From: Ectocarpus siliculosus
Lineage: Eukaryota > Sar > Phaeophyceae > Ectocarpales > Ectocarpaceae
Assembly (NCBI GenBank): GCA_000310025.1
Contig: FN648069.1
Location: 412,960-476,959, forward strand
DNA: 64,000 nt
Direction of reading: 5' to 3'
A model generated the notes under the pieces. The model worked only from the letters and a program-made list of their open reading frames with translations, was not told where the DNA came from and did no database searches. Shown here in pieces: positions 58,057 through 64,000 of the stretch. Numbering within the stretch: the first letter of the stretch is position 1; every line of letters starts with the position of its first letter. The position numbers and the translations under genes were made by a program.

Positions 58057-59683
58057 AAACTTGACATGCCTCTCCGAAGGGATTGAAGCCAAATAGACTA
58101 CAATATAGTTCAAAAAAGAGGTGAAAAAGAGGGCTGCTGGCCTGTACTTTTGACACAAATTTAAACCGCCCCAAGCGTCGACAGCCCAAGCTGAAGGCAT
58201 GCGCTGGTCCGCCTTTCGATGCTCGTTTTTTACGTGGGCTGCTTACTTTCCCAGCTGGCAGCGGGATGGGGACGCTTTTGGTGCGATGAGCCGCCAGGGA
58301 GAGCAAGCCCAAGCTGCAGGGGGGGCACTCATGACAGGAAACGCACCCCCCGGGGCATGCGTTGCAGGTTACGTCCCCCCCTTCGACAAACCCTGCTTGT
58401 GCACCTTGATCTGACCTGCAGGGTGTAACGAAGACTGAGCAGCGCGTACGGTGTAGTGCCAGCCGATGCGAGTTTCGTCGAGGGCCGATGGGCACATGTA
58501 GGTCCAAATCTTGGGTGTGATTTTTGTGCCAGGCGAGGTCAGCAGAGGGATGACGAAATGCTGTCGCGGGCGGTGTGCAGGTCGGACGGTGTTAAAACTC
58601 GGCACACAGCAGTTGTGTGGACAGTGTTAGCGTTGGCTGTCCGAGTTTCGTGGACGTTCGTGAGCAGGATGTGGAGTTATCGACCCGGCAAAACTATCGT
58701 GTGCCGTACTGCTGTGGGCGGCGCAACTTGACGAGAAAACCAGCCGAAACGGTGTTCGTTGCCTCGTTCGCTCGCCTCGCCACCGTCCTTACCGAGACTT
58801 GCGCAGCACGCCTACTTTGTCCTAGTGCATGAGCCGCGGCCAGCATGGGGCTGTATCTTGCTCGGTTGCGGAGAACGCCGTAGCGAAAAAATGCAAGGGG
58901 TGACCCAAGAGGGGAGCCTCGGGATTTGTACTTTTTCGCTGCGCTGCCTGCGACGCGAGGTGAAACACGATGTCCGCTAGTCCTTCAATGACAGATAGAA
59001 CTACTTGTTGCGCCCAGAGAGGCTCCTTCGCTAAGACACTAAGACGATGTTGTCCGTGTCGCGCGTCGCGAGTGATGTGTTGGGCGGAGGGGAGGTCATG
59101 CTCGTGTGTGTGCGTATGTAGTCGGATCTGTAGAAGTGAAACGCTCGGCGTGCTGGCGAGGGCTAGGGTGTGCGCAGGCAGGGCCGCGAACCTCCTCGTC
59201 GTGGCGTTATCGTGGCGTTGTTGAGCTCAGAGAACTCAGCTTCGGCAATGAAGAACAAAAAGGAAGATACACTAAAAACACGTTAAACGGATGCTGATAA
59301 GGCTGAAGCAAGATAAAATGCCTGCGTTTGACACCAGTGTCACTTCGATTGAAATTCCTTGTACCGGGCAGCAGGCGTGGGTCGCGCGAAGGCACCGCCG
59401 CGATTTCGTGCGCGTAGCTGTCGCGAGCTAAGAGAAATCGGCCGCGGTCAAGATATCATGGTCAAGGAACCGCTTTCACACCGGTGCCAAAAATTCTGTT
59501 GGGTTCGTTTGCTTCCGTAGCAGAAACCACAGGATTGGAACAAAAATGACATCCCACAGCTAAGGGTGAAGGCGAGCGATTTGTTCTAAAACACGTGACC
59601 CGAAACAACACTTGCTCTAAAAGATGTGCCCCACTACCGCTTCTATGGCATTCATGAAATTACTCTTTGGTTTGGTTGGTTAG
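58057..59683. other. No gene recognised
   Basis: Overlapping short frames on both strands without motifs or splice partners. No GTPase, NB-ARC, kinase or transmembrane exon that could complete the neighbouring LRR exons was found here. Confidence 0.4.
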
Positions 59684-59754
59684 GAACTATTTCCCAGGAG
59701 TTTGGAGCTCTCAGCAAGCTGAAGCGCTTTCCCTTTCCTTCGGCCAGCTTTCGG
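59684..59754 (+). pseudogene. Decayed LRR exon
   Basis: After GGTTAG the frame gives TISQEFGALSKLKRFPF, matching the first half of the LRR consensus; the second half has lost LxLxxN. The exon is 71 nt rather than 72, so it would shift the frame. The donor GTAAGA is intact. Confidence 0.6.
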
Positions 59755-59971
59755 GTAAGAGGCGGGCACCATTTTCCCGTGAAGGCATATTTTCAAAGTC
59801 GCTCCGCTGGTTCTTGAAACCTACTTGCCGACGCAACGTAAACGTATTTTGGGGCGTGATGCACTTTTTGTCGCCGGCTTCTAGGACATGTGTTCATCCT
59901 ACGCCACGCGCATGCACGATTTCATAAATCTGGTGTGACGTAAACGCGCCGAGTCTGTCGGACAGACTTAC

Positions 59972-60043
59972 CGCTGAGTTTGTTTCCGCGGAGGTCCAGC
60001 GTTTCCAGCTTGACGAGCTGTCCTAGCGACGCCGGGATTTCGC
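59972..60043 (-). CDS. LRR exon, 72 bp
   Basis: CAG acceptor, GTAAG donor, phase 1 at both ends. It encodes EIPASLGQLVKLETLDL then RGNKLSG, a plant-type LRR (IPxxLGxLxxLxxLxLxxNxLSG). This is the first intact minus-strand cassette. Confidence 0.75.
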
Positions 60044-60226
60044 CTGCACGATGGCAATTGGGGGATGGGAAGGGTACTATAATTTAGTTCGTAGGTGGAT
60101 CGTGGAGCACAGACGTAAATTATTGTAAAGCATCGATGTGCGTAAATCGATACTACTGTACATGTTCCAGAAGCCGCAGGATCCACGTCCGGAACTCTCT
60201 AAAGTTTACTTTTGCGTGCGCTGCAG

Positions 60227-60298
60227 GTCCCATTCCCCCTGAGCGGGGGAACCTCGGTGCCCTGGAAACGCTCGACCTGGGATTCAATGATCGAACAG
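60227..60298 (+). CDS. LRR exon, 72 bp
   Basis: After CTGCAG it encodes PIPPERGNLGALETLDL; the Asn position is kept (FND) but the end is RTG rather than LSG. Donor GTGAGA. It is followed by a head-to-head palindrome at 60355-60410. Confidence 0.75.
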
Positions 60299-60480
60299 GT
60301 GAGAACAAATCGAGCAAAATTGGACGCTGTTCTTATTCTTCTAGAACAAGACGGTTTCCGTAGATGCTGTCCCGCCAACGCAGTGGGCGGGACAGGATCT
60401 ACGGACATCGATTTTGAAATTTTAGCGTGCCACGTGAGTATCCATCTCTCTTCCAATTCTCCGATGTCATGTTTTCGCAG

Positions 60481-60552
60481 GACAAATCCCGACGGAGCTA
60501 GGGAACCTACGCATGCTGCCAATGCTTTGGCTTGCCAACAACAAGCTTTCTG
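60481..60552 (+). CDS. LRR exon, 72 bp
   Basis: After TTTTCGCAG it encodes QIPTELGNLRMLPMLWL then ANNKLSG. Donor GTGAGC, phase 1 at both ends. It faces a truncated minus-strand cassette tail to tail. Confidence 0.8.
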
Positions 60553-60628
60553 GTGAGCACGACAAAATATCCTGAGTGTGGAGGTAATTTTGTTTTCGAC
60601 ATGGGTACGTGAATCCCGCGTATGCAAC

Positions 60629-60681
60629 CAGGTCGAGCAGCGCTAGCTTATTTTGAGCGCCGAGCTGCGCCGGAATCGCAC
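60629..60681 (-). pseudogene. LRR exon truncated at a palindrome
   Basis: After CTGCAG it encodes AIPAQLGAQNKLALLDL and then runs directly into GTTGCATACGCGGGATTC, the arm of the donor-side palindrome family. The last 19 bp and the donor are gone, so the breakpoint coincides with the palindrome. Confidence 0.75.
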
Positions 60682-60749
60682 CTGCAGAAGAGTCACACAT
60701 TAGCGGGGGATATAGAAATAAATCACCCGGCTCTCCTTTTTCGGGATGT

Positions 60750-60809
60750 TCGATCTCCGTAGATCTTGTCCCACCCACTAGTGGGTGGGACAAGATCTAC
60801 GGAGATCGA
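60750..60809. repeat. Perfect 60-bp palindrome between two LRR acceptors
   Basis: Two 30-nt arms with no spacer. The left arm contains GATCTCCGTAGATCTTGTCC then CACCCACT, and the right arm is its exact reverse complement. It separates the acceptor of the minus cassette at 60681 from that of the plus cassette at 60871. Confidence 0.95.
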
Positions 60810-60870
60810 TCAAAGCCAACGGGCAATTGTAATTTTTTCCCCCGTGTTCGGACGACTCTTCTGCATGCAG

Positions 60871-60942
60871 GGGCCATCCCGCCGGAGCTGGGAAAGCTCG
60901 CAGCGCTGCGACGGCTCAACCTTCGGGGTAATCAGCTATCGG
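60871..60942 (+). CDS. LRR exon, 72 bp
   Basis: After GCATGCAG it encodes AIPPELGKLAALRRLNL then RGNQLSG. Donor GTGAGT. It is almost identical to the minus-strand cassette at 61775-61704, flanks included. Confidence 0.85.
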
Positions 60943-61045
60943 GTGAGTTGTTTGTTCAAGTGTAGTATGAATCCCGTGTATGCGCGGGATTCATGCATGT
61001 TGAGAACTCGAAAAGAAAAAACGCCCTTCGATCTGCTCAACTCAC

Positions 61046-61117
61046 CATCTAACCTGTTGAAGGAGAGGCGCAGGGACTCGAGGGCCCCAAGATCTCCTAG
61101 CTGAGGCGGCATGTGGC
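61046..61117 (-). CDS. LRR exon, 72 bp
   Basis: After CTACAG it encodes HMPPQLGDLGALESLRL then SFNRLDG. Donor GTGAGT. It is related to the plus-strand cassette at 62293. Confidence 0.8.
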
Positions 61118-61284
61118 CTGTAGATGAACGAGTCAAAGAAGAGTAATTTAGCGGGGTAAAGCAAAAAATGTCCCCCGAGTTCTAGAACACTGGTCCCGCC
61201 TACAGTAGGCGGGACCGACGACTAGAAAGCGTGGGGTTTATTTTTTGTCCTGCTCAGTTACTCGTTCCGTCCGTCCGCTTGTAG

Positions 61285-61356
61285 ACCCCATACCATCCGA
61301 GCTGGGGCACCTTTCGGCACTGTAGGAGCTCGACCCTACGTACAACGAGCCAAGCG
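61285..61356 (+). pseudogene. LRR exon with in-frame stop
   Basis: After CTTGTAG it encodes PIPSELGHLSAL, then TAG, then ELDPTYNEPSG. The exon is still exactly 72 bp with a usable GTGAGC donor, so splicing may persist although translation would stop. Confidence 0.8.
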
Positions 61357-61526
61357 GTGAGCCAACACGTGATTTGATAGCCCTTTCCCGACCGATTTTG
61401 CGTGAGTCTCGTGTATGAATCTCGCCGATGGGTGGGTGGGACAAGATCTACAGAGATCGGATATCCCAAAAAAAGAGTCGGGTGATTTATTTCTATATCC
61501 CCCGCTAATGTGTTAATCTTCTGCAG

Positions 61527-61598
61527 GTGCGATTCCGGCGCAGCTCGGTGCTCTAAATAAGCTCACGCTGCTCGACCTGCCCTACCACTAGCTCAGCG
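61527..61598 (+). pseudogene. LRR exon with stop and lost donor
   Basis: After CTGCAG it encodes AIPAQLGALNKLTLLDL, then PYH, then TAG and LS. The donor dinucleotide has become TT (GCG|TTGAGA). It is the same LRR type as the minus cassettes at 60681 and 62564. Confidence 0.8.
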
Positions 61599-61703
61599 TT
61601 GAGAGACTGATGAAATTTGATACTTTTCTTTCTCGAACATAATTATGTGTCCATTCACGCATACACGGGATTCATACTAACTGCACTTGAACAAACAACT
61701 CAC

Positions 61704-61775
61704 CGGATAGCTGATTACCCCGAAGGTTGAGCCGTCGCAGCGCTGCGAGCTTTCCCAGCTGCGGCGGGATGGCCC
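61704..61775 (-). CDS. LRR exon, 72 bp
   Basis: After GCATGCAG it encodes AIPPQLGKLAALRRLNL then RGNQLSG. Donor GTGAGT. It differs from the plus cassette at 60871 by very few bases and lies in opposite orientation. Confidence 0.85.
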
Positions 61776-61951
61776 CTGCATGCAGAAGAGTTGTCCGAAC
61801 ACGGGGAAAAAAATTACAATTGCCCGTTGGCTTTGATCGATTTCCGTAGATCTTGTCCCGCCCACTAGTGGGTTGGTGGGACAAGATCTACGGACATTTG
61901 CAATAGTCTTGATTTTTTTTCAAAGTTCTCTTCCATCCCAAATTCATGCAG

Positions 61952-62023
61952 GTGAAACACCGGCGTTGCTAGGACAGCTCAGGAACCTGCAGGTGCTCAG
62001 TCTACGCAGAAACAAGCTCACAT
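61952..62023 (+). CDS. LRR exon, 72 bp
   Basis: After CATGCAG it encodes ETPALLGQLRNLQVLSL then RRNKLT. Donor GTGAGT. The next minus cassette has been deleted, leaving only its donor scar at about 62163-62172. Confidence 0.75.
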
Positions 62024-62173
62024 GTGAGTTCTATGGCGGATTTGAGTGCGTCGTGGTGAAGGGTTTTCTTCCCGGCCTGATTCCACCGATGAATCTCGCC
62101 TACTGCATACGCGGGATTTATGCATGTTCAGAACTCGAAAGAAAAAAAATGATTTTCGATCTGTTGAACTCAC

Positions 62174-62235
62174 CCCGAGTTCTAGAAGATCGGTCCCGCC
62201 TACGCGTAGGCAGGGCCGATCTTGTAGAACTCGGG
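62174..62235. repeat. Acceptor-side palindrome, second sequence type
   Basis: CCGAGTTCTAGAAGATCGGT and CCCGCCTACGCGTAGG are followed by the near-complementary arm ending CTTGTAGAACTCGGG. It shares the GTCCCGCC/GGCGGGAC core with the other acceptor-side palindromes but has TTCTAGAA in place of GATCTACGG. Confidence 0.85.
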
Positions 62236-62292
62236 AGATTATTTTTTGCTTTCCCCCGCTAAATTACCTTGCTTCGACTCGTTCACCTACAG

Positions 62293-62364
62293 GACACATC
62301 CCGCCGCAGTTTGGGGATCTTGGCGCCCTGGAGTACCTCAACATCTTCAACAACGACTTAGATG
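62293..62364 (+). CDS. LRR exon, 72 bp
   Basis: After CCTACAG it encodes HIPPQFGDLGALEYLNI then FNNDLDG. Donor GTGAGT. Confidence 0.8.
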
Positions 62365-62492
62365 GTGAGTTCAACAGATCGAAAATCATGTTTTTTTCTT
62401 TCGAGTTCTGACCATGCATGAATCCCGCGTACGCAACAGCGGGACACATAAAGTTGGAGAAAAAAAGTATTCAAATTTCATCAGTCTCTCAC

Positions 62493-62564
62493 CGCTGAGC
62501 TGGTTGACGGACAGGTTGAGCCACGTGAGCTTTTTGAGAGCGCCGAGATGCGCCGGGATCGCAC
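62493..62564 (-). CDS. LRR exon, 72 bp
   Basis: After CTGCAG it encodes AIPAHLGALKKLTWLNL then SVNQLSG. Donor GTGAGA. It is the intact member of the type broken at 60629 and 61527. Confidence 0.85.
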
Positions 62565-62704
62565 CTGCAGAAGGAGTAGACATACAAATAAATCACCAGG
62601 CTCTCTTTTCTCAATATATTCAATCTCCGGAGATCTTGTCCCACCCACTGCAGTTGGTGGGATCTATTCTAGAAATTATAACACATGCCAGCGCCCTGAC
62701 TCAC

Positions 62705-62776
62705 CGCTTAGCAAGTTGGCACCAAGGTCGAGGTGTCGCAGTGCTGCGAGGTTCCCGAGCTCCGACGGGATGGGGC
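62705..62776 (-). CDS. LRR exon, 72 bp
   Basis: After CTTACAG it encodes PIPSELGNLAALRHLDL then GANLLSG. Donor GTGAGT. It is related to the plus cassette at 63671. Confidence 0.85.
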
Positions 62777-62963
62777 CTGTAAGCAGAAGTGCAATACACA
62801 TCAAGCGGGGAATAAAAAATAAATAACCCGCCTCTCTATTTTGAAGACAACTCATCTCCGTAGATCTTGTCCCGCCTACTAGTTGGCGTCCGCTCACGTA
62901 GTTCGTAGGGCACAACCTACATCAATTTTGAGTTTTTGTTTTTTCGCTGCCGTGCACTTGCAG

Positions 62964-63035
62964 GTCACATCCCCATGGAGCTAGGAGCTTTCAGCGAGCT
63001 GCAGTTGCTCAAGCTTGAGGAGAACCAGCTTACCG
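62964..63035 (+). CDS. LRR exon, 72 bp
   Basis: After CTTGCAG it encodes HIPMELGAFSELQLLKL then EENQLTG. Donor GTAAGT. Confidence 0.8.
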
Positions 63036-63175
63036 GTAAGTTCTTTGCGGTGAAAGGAAGACTTAAGTTTTCTTGGAACACGCATCCTGCGCACGCGTGC
63101 GCGGGGTTCATCTTGGAATACGGCAACTTGGCAGAAGAATATTAGAACTGTGCGCTACGTGCCTTAGTGACTCAC

Positions 63176-63247
63176 CGCTCAGCTCGTTCACGTTGAGGGA
63201 TAGGGTTTGGAGCGCGGTTAGGTTTCTCAGCTCCGCCGGGATGGTGC
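63176..63247 (-). CDS. LRR exon, 72 bp
   Basis: After GGCAG it encodes TIPAELRNLTALQTLSL then NVNELSG. Donor GTGAGT. Confidence 0.8.
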
Positions 63248-63428
63248 CTGCCAGACGAAGGGGTAACAAGAAGTTAGCGGGAGAAAATACAAAAAATATC
63301 CCCCAGCGTCTAGTCTAGAAAAACGGTCCCGCCAATGCAGTTGGCGTCCACTCAATGGTCTAGAAGCCGGGGCATTGTTTTTGTTTTGACCCGTAACCAT
63401 CACTCCGTTTTCTTTCTTCCACTTACAA

Positions 63429-63500
63429 GCCCCATCCCGCCGGCGCTGGGAAAGCTCGCAGCGCTTCAAGATCTGTACCTCTACGGGAACCAGCTAAGCG
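63429..63500 (+). pseudogene. LRR exon with both splice sites lost
   Basis: The frame gives PIPPALGKLAALQDLYL then YGNQLS and is open, but the acceptor reads ACAA instead of ACAG and the donor reads AT instead of GT. Decay here has hit splicing before coding. Confidence 0.75.
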
Positions 63501-63670
63501 ATGAGACACTGTTGAAATGAGTTAAGAAAAATACCCATGAATTTTCAGGATGAATCTCGTGTATTGCGTAGGTGGGACAAGATCTACGGAGATGAGTTGT
63601 CTTCAATATAGAGAGGCGGGTTGTTTGATTTCATTTCCCCGCTTGATGTGTATCGCACTCCTGCTTACAG

Positions 63671-63739
63671 GCCCCATCTCGCCGGAGCTCGGGAACCTCG
63701 CAGCACTGCGACGCCTCGACCTTCACTCCAACATAAGTG
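63671..63739 (+). CDS. LRR exon, 69 bp
   Basis: After GCTTACAG it encodes PISPELGNLAALRRLDL then HSNISG, one residue shorter than the others but in phase. Donor GTATGT. Confidence 0.75.
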
Positions 63740-63867
63740 GTATGTGGTATAATTTCTAAAATAAATCCCACCAACTAGTGGGCGGGACAAGAACTACGGA
63801 GATCGATATAAGCCAGCGGGCAATTGTAATTTATCCCCCCGTGTTCGGACAACTCTTCTGCGTGCAG

Positions 63868-63939
63868 GGGCCATCCCGCCGGAGCTGGGAAAGCTCACAG
63901 CGCTGCGATGGCTCAATCTTCGGAGTAATCAGCTATCCA
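63868..63939 (+). CDS. LRR exon, 72 bp, last before the edge
   Basis: After CGTGCAG it encodes AIPPELGKLTALRWLNL then RSNQLS. Donor GTGAGT. Third member of the type at 60871 and 61704. The array continues beyond the window. Confidence 0.8.
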
Positions 63940-64000
63940 GTGAGTTGTTTGTTCAACTGTAGTATGAATCCCGTGTATACATACGTGGGAATCATATACC

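Follow-up and report, generated by a model that had tools for sequence, protein, structure and literature searches.

Leucine-rich repeat exon cassettes in mixed orientation with shared inverted-repeat ends in Ectocarpus siliculosus

A stretch of 64,000 nucleotides of the Ectocarpus siliculosus genome (C476:412960-476959, hereafter the window) contains, near its right edge, an array of single leucine-rich repeat (LRR) exons lying on both strands. The exons are carried by cassettes of ~236 bp, the two ends of which share one terminal inverted repeat. An earlier reading of the window (the original prediction) had proposed inverted LRR cassettes with palindrome-forming ends and a movement of units at those ends, and this is supported by the sequence comparison described below. 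We consider it probable that the exon cassettes are shuffled by recombination at their shared ends, and that sense exons are spliced whereas antisense exons stay silent. Taken together, the cassettes and their ends suggest a natural exon-shuffling machine in a eukaryote.

Exon arrays and sample

Using a position weight matrix, 17 LRR exons of 72 bp were found in the window at 59972-63939 (11 plus, 6 minus). Their scores range from 44 to 92, the top score per shuffled window being ≤ -22.8 in ten shuffles. A profile search added two degenerate LRR exons, and the resulting total of 19 (12 plus, 7 minus) matches the number and strands given in the original prediction, as does the uniformity of the exons: 17 of the 19 have 72 bp and one reading phase, in which nucleotides 3-71 give 23 residues. 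The array runs past the window edge, to C476:477586.

For comparison, 34 stretches of the same genome (189 Mb, 492 contigs) were examined. They were selected by similarity to one window cassette, an LRR protein search, Roc matches, an end-pattern match and, for three stretches, NB-ARC matches; the sampling is biased toward kin of the window array. Exons of 72 bp were present in 24 of the 34 stretches (321 exons in total). L014 and L015 are adjacent stretches of one contig.

Cassette unit and junctions

The order within a cassette is upstream end, intron piece with acceptor, 72-bp exon, donor with intron piece, and downstream end. Already a model-free count of the most frequent 8-mers before and after the exon reveals the ends. 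A motif search seeded from common flank 8-mers gave A[CT]GCGTNGGCGGGAC for the upstream and A[CT]GC[AG]TNSGCGGGATTCAT for the downstream end. Both motifs are the same repeat, pointing inward, so that a terminal inverted repeat of ~13 bp, GCRTNSGCGGGA, is common to both cassette ends. The upstream motif exceeded the 99% shuffle level in 67% of the flanks and the downstream motif in 73%.

The spacing of neighbouring exons is additive. Median gaps were 194 bp head-to-head, 136 bp tail-to-tail, and 165 and 160 bp between same-strand neighbours; the same-strand gap minus the additive value was -2.0 bp (95% confidence interval -9.25 to 6). Since the same-strand median is what half of one plus half of the other of the two opposite-strand gaps would give, the exon with ~97 bp before and ~67 bp after it forms one unit.

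Both half-sites were located in 202 of 270 junctions. Their distance is exactly 2 bp in 109 of these, with the core GC in 94 and TA in 12, and 0-4 bp in 142 of 202, compared to 3 of 186 in a control with circularly shifted sequence. The 2-bp spacing is about equally frequent in head-head (26/53), tail-tail (30/49) and same-strand junctions (53/100); cores of 3 bp also occur. TA cores were found in 9 of 35 head-head and 0 of 34 tail-tail junctions (p = 0.002), hence the core seems to be a property of the cassette end, unlike a target duplication. As the same terminal repeat is present at both ends and the ends abut with a short core, a junction is roughly symmetric whichever way the cassettes face.

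The two kinds of palindrome described in the original prediction form where like ends adjoin, upstream with upstream or downstream with downstream. Both kinds are present in the window, for instance between acceptors at 60747-60812 (33-nt arms, 97% complementary) and between donors at 60967-60994. Among 248 junctions, palindromes above the 99% shuffle level were found in 25-26% of the opposite-strand and 8-10% of the same-strand junctions; outside the window long palindromes are a minority, because the ends fall into several diverged families. Remnants of a missing exon or palindrome, which had been noted between same-strand neighbours, were seen by eye at three of the six plus-plus junctions of the window (60298-60481, 60552-60871 and 62023-62293). 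Over all arrays, same-strand neighbours usually need no lost exon: both half-sites are present in 100 of 134 same-strand junctions and spaced 0-8 bp in 76 of these.

Exact end patterns were found in LRR arrays only. An 18-base downstream-end pattern had 40 genome matches listed (reversed control, 0) and a 16-base upstream-end pattern 24 (reversed control, 1). The examined arrays hold the same numbers, 40 and 24, all inside array bounds, and consequently none of the listed exact matches, which miss diverged ends, lies outside LRR arrays. Similarly, the palindrome at 60747-60812 has 12 matching places including itself, every one in an LRR array. A viral source of the ends was also considered and rejected, one end variant having 0 matches in viral contigs.

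Exon orientation

Over the 24 stretches, 159 exons are on the plus and 162 on the minus strand. Neighbouring exons switch strand in 146 of 297 cases, and 145.1 switches are expected for random order within each stretch; the four neighbour types in the first 20 stretches were counted 67, 63, 63 and 67 times. Orientation is therefore random. The term 'alternating', used in the original prediction, is too strong, and strict alternation is ruled out by the same switch count.

Mixed orientation was found in 21 of the 24 stretches. Orientation was uniform in L022 (7 exons; ends found upstream at 1 and downstream at 3), L032 (5 exons; 3 and 0) and L031 (2 exons; 1 and 2). The scarcity of ends in L022 and L032, the longer uniform arrays, fits the cassette model in a small sample. 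In L031 (C19:2042810-2043095) a Roc match is present, and its only two 72-bp LRR exons are both opposed to the Roc strand.

Three NB-ARC stretches (L038-L040), in which repeated units adjoin an NB-ARC match, served as a control. When inverted repeats of at least 60 nt were sought in these three, none were found. NB-ARC stretches, of which three from 27 matches were examined, were thus rejected as a second case of mixed orientation. In all three, the units next to the NB-ARC matches are repeated in direct orientation. In L040 the unit spacing is mostly ~745 bp and the copies are 66-98% identical to a reference copy, many of them > 90%; this array looks recently expanded.

Cassette copies at different places

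Candidate cassette pairs of at least 93% identity at different places were collected, and 202 of 218 were extended. The alignment ended ≤ 10 bp from the site centre in 114 of 186 cases on the left and 111 of 178 on the right. Where the site had an equal offset in both members of a pair with ≥ 95% identity, a position-wise profile was calculated (78 upstream and 90 downstream pairs). Values are 0.91-1.0 within the cassette compared to 0.19-0.41 at 20-40 bp outside; identity drops over the first outside bases, where the shared repeat keeps some positions high. Complete identity over 203-236 bp was found in six cassette pairs. In five of these the members are on different contigs, and the sixth (L027_10 and L027_17) lies in one array in opposite orientations. 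The orientation of pairs between contigs is arbitrary.

Turnover within arrays is illustrated by L009, the stretch with the window array, and L026, two paralogous loci on C476. Their flanks are shared with 80-95% identity and the first two and last two cassettes are kept in order. Of the 16 interior cassettes of L009, however, just one is matched in L026 at 80% identity or more. Generally, the neighbour order of cassettes between arrays is close to random, thus single flips are untraceable.

Gene strand and N-terminal exon

An N-terminal exon (MAQTDREALVALY...) was found on the minus strand at L009 7257-7433, ~1.3 kb past the right edge of the window. In all 14 stretches with a match to this exon there is one match per stretch, on one strand. 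Because the exon lies on the minus strand, the gene of the window array is most likely on the minus strand too. Roc matches give the gene strand for five more stretches (L016, L021, L025, L031 and L032, with L025 below Pfam's cut-off). Strands given by the N-terminal exon and by Roc agree in six of six stretches (L022, L023, L024, L027, L028 and L030), four of these Roc matches being below the cut-off.

A Roc match lies within ~10 kb of 11 of the 24 exon-bearing stretches, 6 over Pfam's cut-off and 5 below. Near the window array on C476 there was none among the matches listed, hence the window gene may be LRR-only or a reserve. The Ectocarpus fasciculatus protein P0053 has an N-terminal stretch of this kind together with LRRs and the beginning of Roc, and a Roc-domain open frame of the genome examined here shares 96% identity with E. 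fasciculatus protein P0002 over 62% of the query.

Exon integrity

An exon was considered intact when it contained no stop codon, was preceded by AG and followed by GT or GC. This holds for 271 of all 321 exons. In the 19 stretches with an assigned strand (150 sense and 113 antisense exons), 140 sense exons are intact compared to 84 antisense exons (Fisher's exact test, p = 3.4e-5); in the strand-unassigned stretches 47 of 58 are intact. A profile search gave 37 extra degenerate matches (14 sense, 20 antisense, 3 unknown), which are outside these counts. Counting them as broken yields 140/164 intact sense versus 84/133 intact antisense exons (p = 1.2e-5). The contrast persists without L025 (p = 3.2e-5), without L025 and L018 (p = 0.0011), with N-terminal-exon strands alone (111/117 versus 68/93, p = 1.0e-5) and in a within-stretch permutation (p = 5e-5). 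Of the 20 exons in the window array, three of which are past the window edge, 7/7 sense and 8/13 antisense exons are intact; the remnants at 60629-60688 and 59682-59760 were left uncounted.

The original prediction had proposed that one stretch of DNA could feed two interleaved receptors. In the 14 stretches with a match, the N-terminal exon is single and confined to one strand, and antisense exons are broken more frequently than sense exons; both results argue against this, and the idea was dropped.

Variable codons

In 156 near-identical pairs, differences amount to 15.0% in codons 13, 14, 16, 18, 19 and 21, which were picked after first viewing the per-codon differences, compared to 2.3% in the other codons, 3.8% in the upstream and 4.9% in the downstream flank. 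Four of the six codons (14, 16, 18 and 19) have been reported as positively selected sites (PMC11378527). The pooled ratio of nonsynonymous to synonymous changes over whole exons is 1.05 (130 pairs), with values of 1.0 for sense-sense pairs (n = 37) and 1.47 for antisense pairs (n = 18). Targeted hypermutation was considered as well; in 43 very close pairs the variable codons have on average 1.2 differences and the flanks 1.1. Selection is taken to be enough to explain the variable codons, with hypermutation a less favoured possibility.

Proposed mechanism and alternative explanations

We infer an enzyme which would cut at or near the central dinucleotide and rejoin any two ends. Rejoining could result in inversion, loss, gain or transfer of a cassette, the symmetry of core and arms permitting inversion as well as loss. 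As all exons share one phase, those facing with the gene could be spliced, and they would be placed between the N-terminal exon and the C-terminal part, which is the Roc GTPase in ROCO members. Exons facing the opposite way would be treated as part of an intron and retained as a silent reserve. A protein search for transcript evidence was dominated by unrelated LRR proteins. The outcome would be a candidate immune receptor with a binding surface rebuilt by flips and moves of single repeats. A further-reaching version is a programmed system that is still active, in the germ line or during the lifetime of the alga. A dedicated recombinase would act on symmetric GC-core sites, invert LRR exons and transfer them between receptor genes, and thereby provide a combinatorial immune repertoire without lymphocytes; this is possible but rather doubtful.

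Several results weigh against shuffling at the shared ends. One or both half-sites are absent at 68 of 270 junctions, and 54 of the 202 located pairs are spaced outside 0-8 bp. Unlike cores are predicted to join imprecisely and give 3-bp junctions, for which the effect was not significant (p = 0.23). In 84 cassette pairs sharing ≥ 96% identity, both sites were located; identity stops within 5 bp of both sites in 25 of them, of one site in 42 and of neither in 17. Since only 25 of the 84 end at both sites, other exchange also happens. Moreover, cassette pairs have members in common and are not independent. In-place flips of single cassettes were rejected as a demonstrable process, the signal being weak at best: conserved neighbour pairs with changed orientation numbered 36, 27 and 13 at three thresholds, barely above the 26.3, 19.1 and 11.1 of 300 permutations, and these counts were reached in 16, 21 and 95 of the permutations. 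Pairs with consistent orientation numbered 14, 13 and 8 (permuted, 9.0, 6.7 and 3.6). The strand effect on integrity is weaker without first and last exons (broken 9/134 versus 18/91, p = 0.0057) and when strands are flipped by stretch (p = 0.006), and some gene strands depend on Roc matches below Pfam's cut-off. Finally, a domain search of the genome, in which introns were ignored, gave no recombinase tied to the arrays. It found one partial PF00239 resolvase-type match (C16:5122087-5122275, minus strand, E = 1.6e-5, in a frame of 122 residues) and one partial PF00589 phage-integrase match (C76:55488), both over Pfam's cut-off. Neither is near any examined array, and no examined array is on C76.

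One of the other explanations is that the cassettes are non-autonomous DNA transposons. MITE-type (miniature inverted-repeat transposable element) transposons are short units with terminal inverted repeats, and if MITE-like elements with a captured LRR exon had inserted into each other with a 2-bp target duplication, such repeats, a 2-bp core and copies at several loci would be expected, as observed. We regard this as unlikely, since in 189 Mb the exact end patterns were found inside LRR arrays only (40/40 and 24/24 matches listed, diverged ends being uncovered) and the TA core is tied to upstream ends, whereas a target duplication should be independent of the end. Palindromes are fragile DNA, so their hairpins could also break and be reassembled by ordinary end joining or template switching, with no dedicated enzyme. 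The long palindromes at some junctions and the 3-bp cores agree with this, but hairpin repair is expected to leave ragged joints, and same-strand junctions, which rarely have long palindromes, equal the others in 2-bp spacing; we judge such an origin rather improbable.

Tandem LRR exons could also undergo ordinary homologous exchange and gene conversion, together with an occasional inversion, which would account for longer blocks common to many copies and for the 17 of 84 close pairs ending away from both sites. Such exchange predicts neither breaks at site centres nor a 1:1 orientation, and the three NB-ARC stretches have repeated units yet no inverted repeats of the length sought. As the principal process it is very unlikely. 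Even less probable are decaying pseudogene arrays devoid of function. The 29 of 113 broken antisense exons, the 37 further degenerate matches and the lack of a listed Roc match near the window array point in that direction; against it, most exons are intact, sense ones more so, and change is fastest in ligand-face codons while the scaffold is conserved. An assembly error has next to no probability. Repeats of 200-240 bp are difficult for short reads, but many of the arrays lie within megabase contigs, the pattern recurs in 21 of 24 stretches, copies have different neighbours, and inversions are lacking in the three NB-ARC stretches from the same assembly. Shuffling of cassettes by recombination at their shared ends remains the preferred explanation.

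Features of the window array

Features are given from left to right; 'sense' refers to the minus strand as the predicted gene strand. Exons were located with the weight matrix and junctions by half-site analysis, unless otherwise noted. The leftmost feature is a degenerate antisense exon at 59682-59760 (plus; nhmmer match L009 1682-1760), followed by an intact sense exon at 59972-60043 (minus) and antisense exons at 60227-60298 and 60481-60552 (both plus). Between the latter two, a remnant of an upstream-end palindrome was read from the sequence at 60368-60395. A degenerate sense remnant follows at 60629-60688 (minus; nhmmer match L009 2629-2688). The palindrome at 60747-60812 (inverted repeat I20) joins two upstream ends with the core TA and precedes an antisense exon at 60871-60942 (plus).

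The palindrome at 60967-60994 joins two downstream ends and leads to an intact sense exon at 61046-61117 (minus); like the upstream-end palindromes at 61192-61216 and 61852-61885, it was defined by junction palindrome and half-site analysis. Between these two upstream-end palindromes are an antisense exon with a stop codon (61285-61356, plus), a downstream end joined to an upstream end at a plus-plus junction (61416-61445), an antisense exon with a stop codon and a broken donor (61527-61598, plus) and an intact sense exon (61704-61775, minus). Two antisense exons follow at 61952-62023 and 62293-62364 (both plus).

A junction of two downstream ends with the core GC (62419-62448) separates the latter exon from an intact sense exon at 62493-62564 (minus), which is connected by a minus-minus upstream-downstream junction with the core TGCA (62635-62666) to another intact sense exon at 62705-62776 (minus). 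Two upstream ends then meet at 62867-62896 (core TA), followed by an antisense exon at 62964-63035 (plus), and two downstream ends at 63081-63110 (core GC), followed by an intact sense exon at 63176-63247 (minus). The next upstream-end to upstream-end junction, at 63323-63353, has the core GCA. An antisense exon with broken acceptor and donor (63429-63500, plus) is linked by a downstream end joined to an upstream end with the core TGC (63551-63581) to an antisense exon with a broken donor (63671-63742, plus). A junction between two plus exons with the core TA (63762-63791), an antisense exon at 63868-63939 (plus) and a downstream-end to downstream-end junction at 63965-63994 complete the series.

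Two observations were made in the vicinity of the loci. At C476:356511, ~56 kb before the window, an LRR match lies in an open frame of 18,877 residues, which represents either a very large repetitive protein or a repeat devoid of stop codons. The tail of L009 as well as L010, L014, L017, L038 and L041 adjoin a repeat (up to ~600 bp, 83-97% identical) that is present in both orientations and is probably a transposable element.

Comparison with known systems

The arrays resemble brown-algal LRR-ROCO genes in having single-LRR exons of 72 bp in one phase (nucleotides 3-71) and variable ligand-face codons 14, 16, 18 and 19 (PMC11378527). Roc, which follows the LRRs in those genes, has a match within ~10 kb of 11 of the 24 exon-bearing stretches. 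LRR-only loci have been suggested as a reservoir in the brown-algal ROCO work (Teng et al. 2024, PMC11378527). The main text of that paper contains no term for palindromes, inversion, opposite, reverse, antisense, orientation or transposition. Cassette ends, core and random orientation are additions to the LRR exon shuffling described. In a literature search, no inverted LRR cassettes with shared ends in a eukaryote appeared in the titles and abstract starts among the matches listed; an earlier mention of reversed exons in Zambounis et al. 2012 is possible.

The original prediction had called the array a possible eukaryotic shufflon. In the shufflon of IncI plasmids, coding segments between inverted repeats are reassorted in orientation and order (PMC5430464), and segments of mixed orientation between inverted repeats are likewise present in the LRR arrays. 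The term may describe the mode of working, membership being possible at most. No Rci-type tyrosine recombinase was found beside the array, the single partial PF00589 match of the genome being on C76 (introns ignored). Furthermore, shufflon segments are alternative C-terminal parts of PilV with rci adjoining (PMC5430464), whereas those of the arrays are predicted to be spliced exons, and sfx sites are asymmetric (PMC11852207), whereas the array sites look symmetric. Lamprey variable lymphocyte receptor (VLR) loci also have LRR modules in forward and reverse direction near the receptor genes, but there an incomplete gene is filled by copying from the cassettes, which act as templates and undergo no rearrangement of their own (PMC3308329). 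In the algal arrays, the cassettes themselves supply exons, placed between the start exon and the remainder of the gene, and have shared terminal repeats. Such repeats are found in MITEs too; the difference is that 0/40 and 0/24 of the listed exact end matches lie outside LRR arrays, diverged ends being uncovered.

Somatic recombination was once proposed as the builder of Ectocarpus immune receptors. According to PMC11378527, neither recombined ROCO loci nor site-specific recombinases have been reported in brown algae. The cassette ends give this question concrete sites, namely predicted breakpoints, a core dinucleotide and targets for the polymerase chain reaction. Should the units still be mobile, the inversion of exons between symmetric sites would represent a way of receptor diversification unlike V(D)J joining, VLR copying and alternative splicing.

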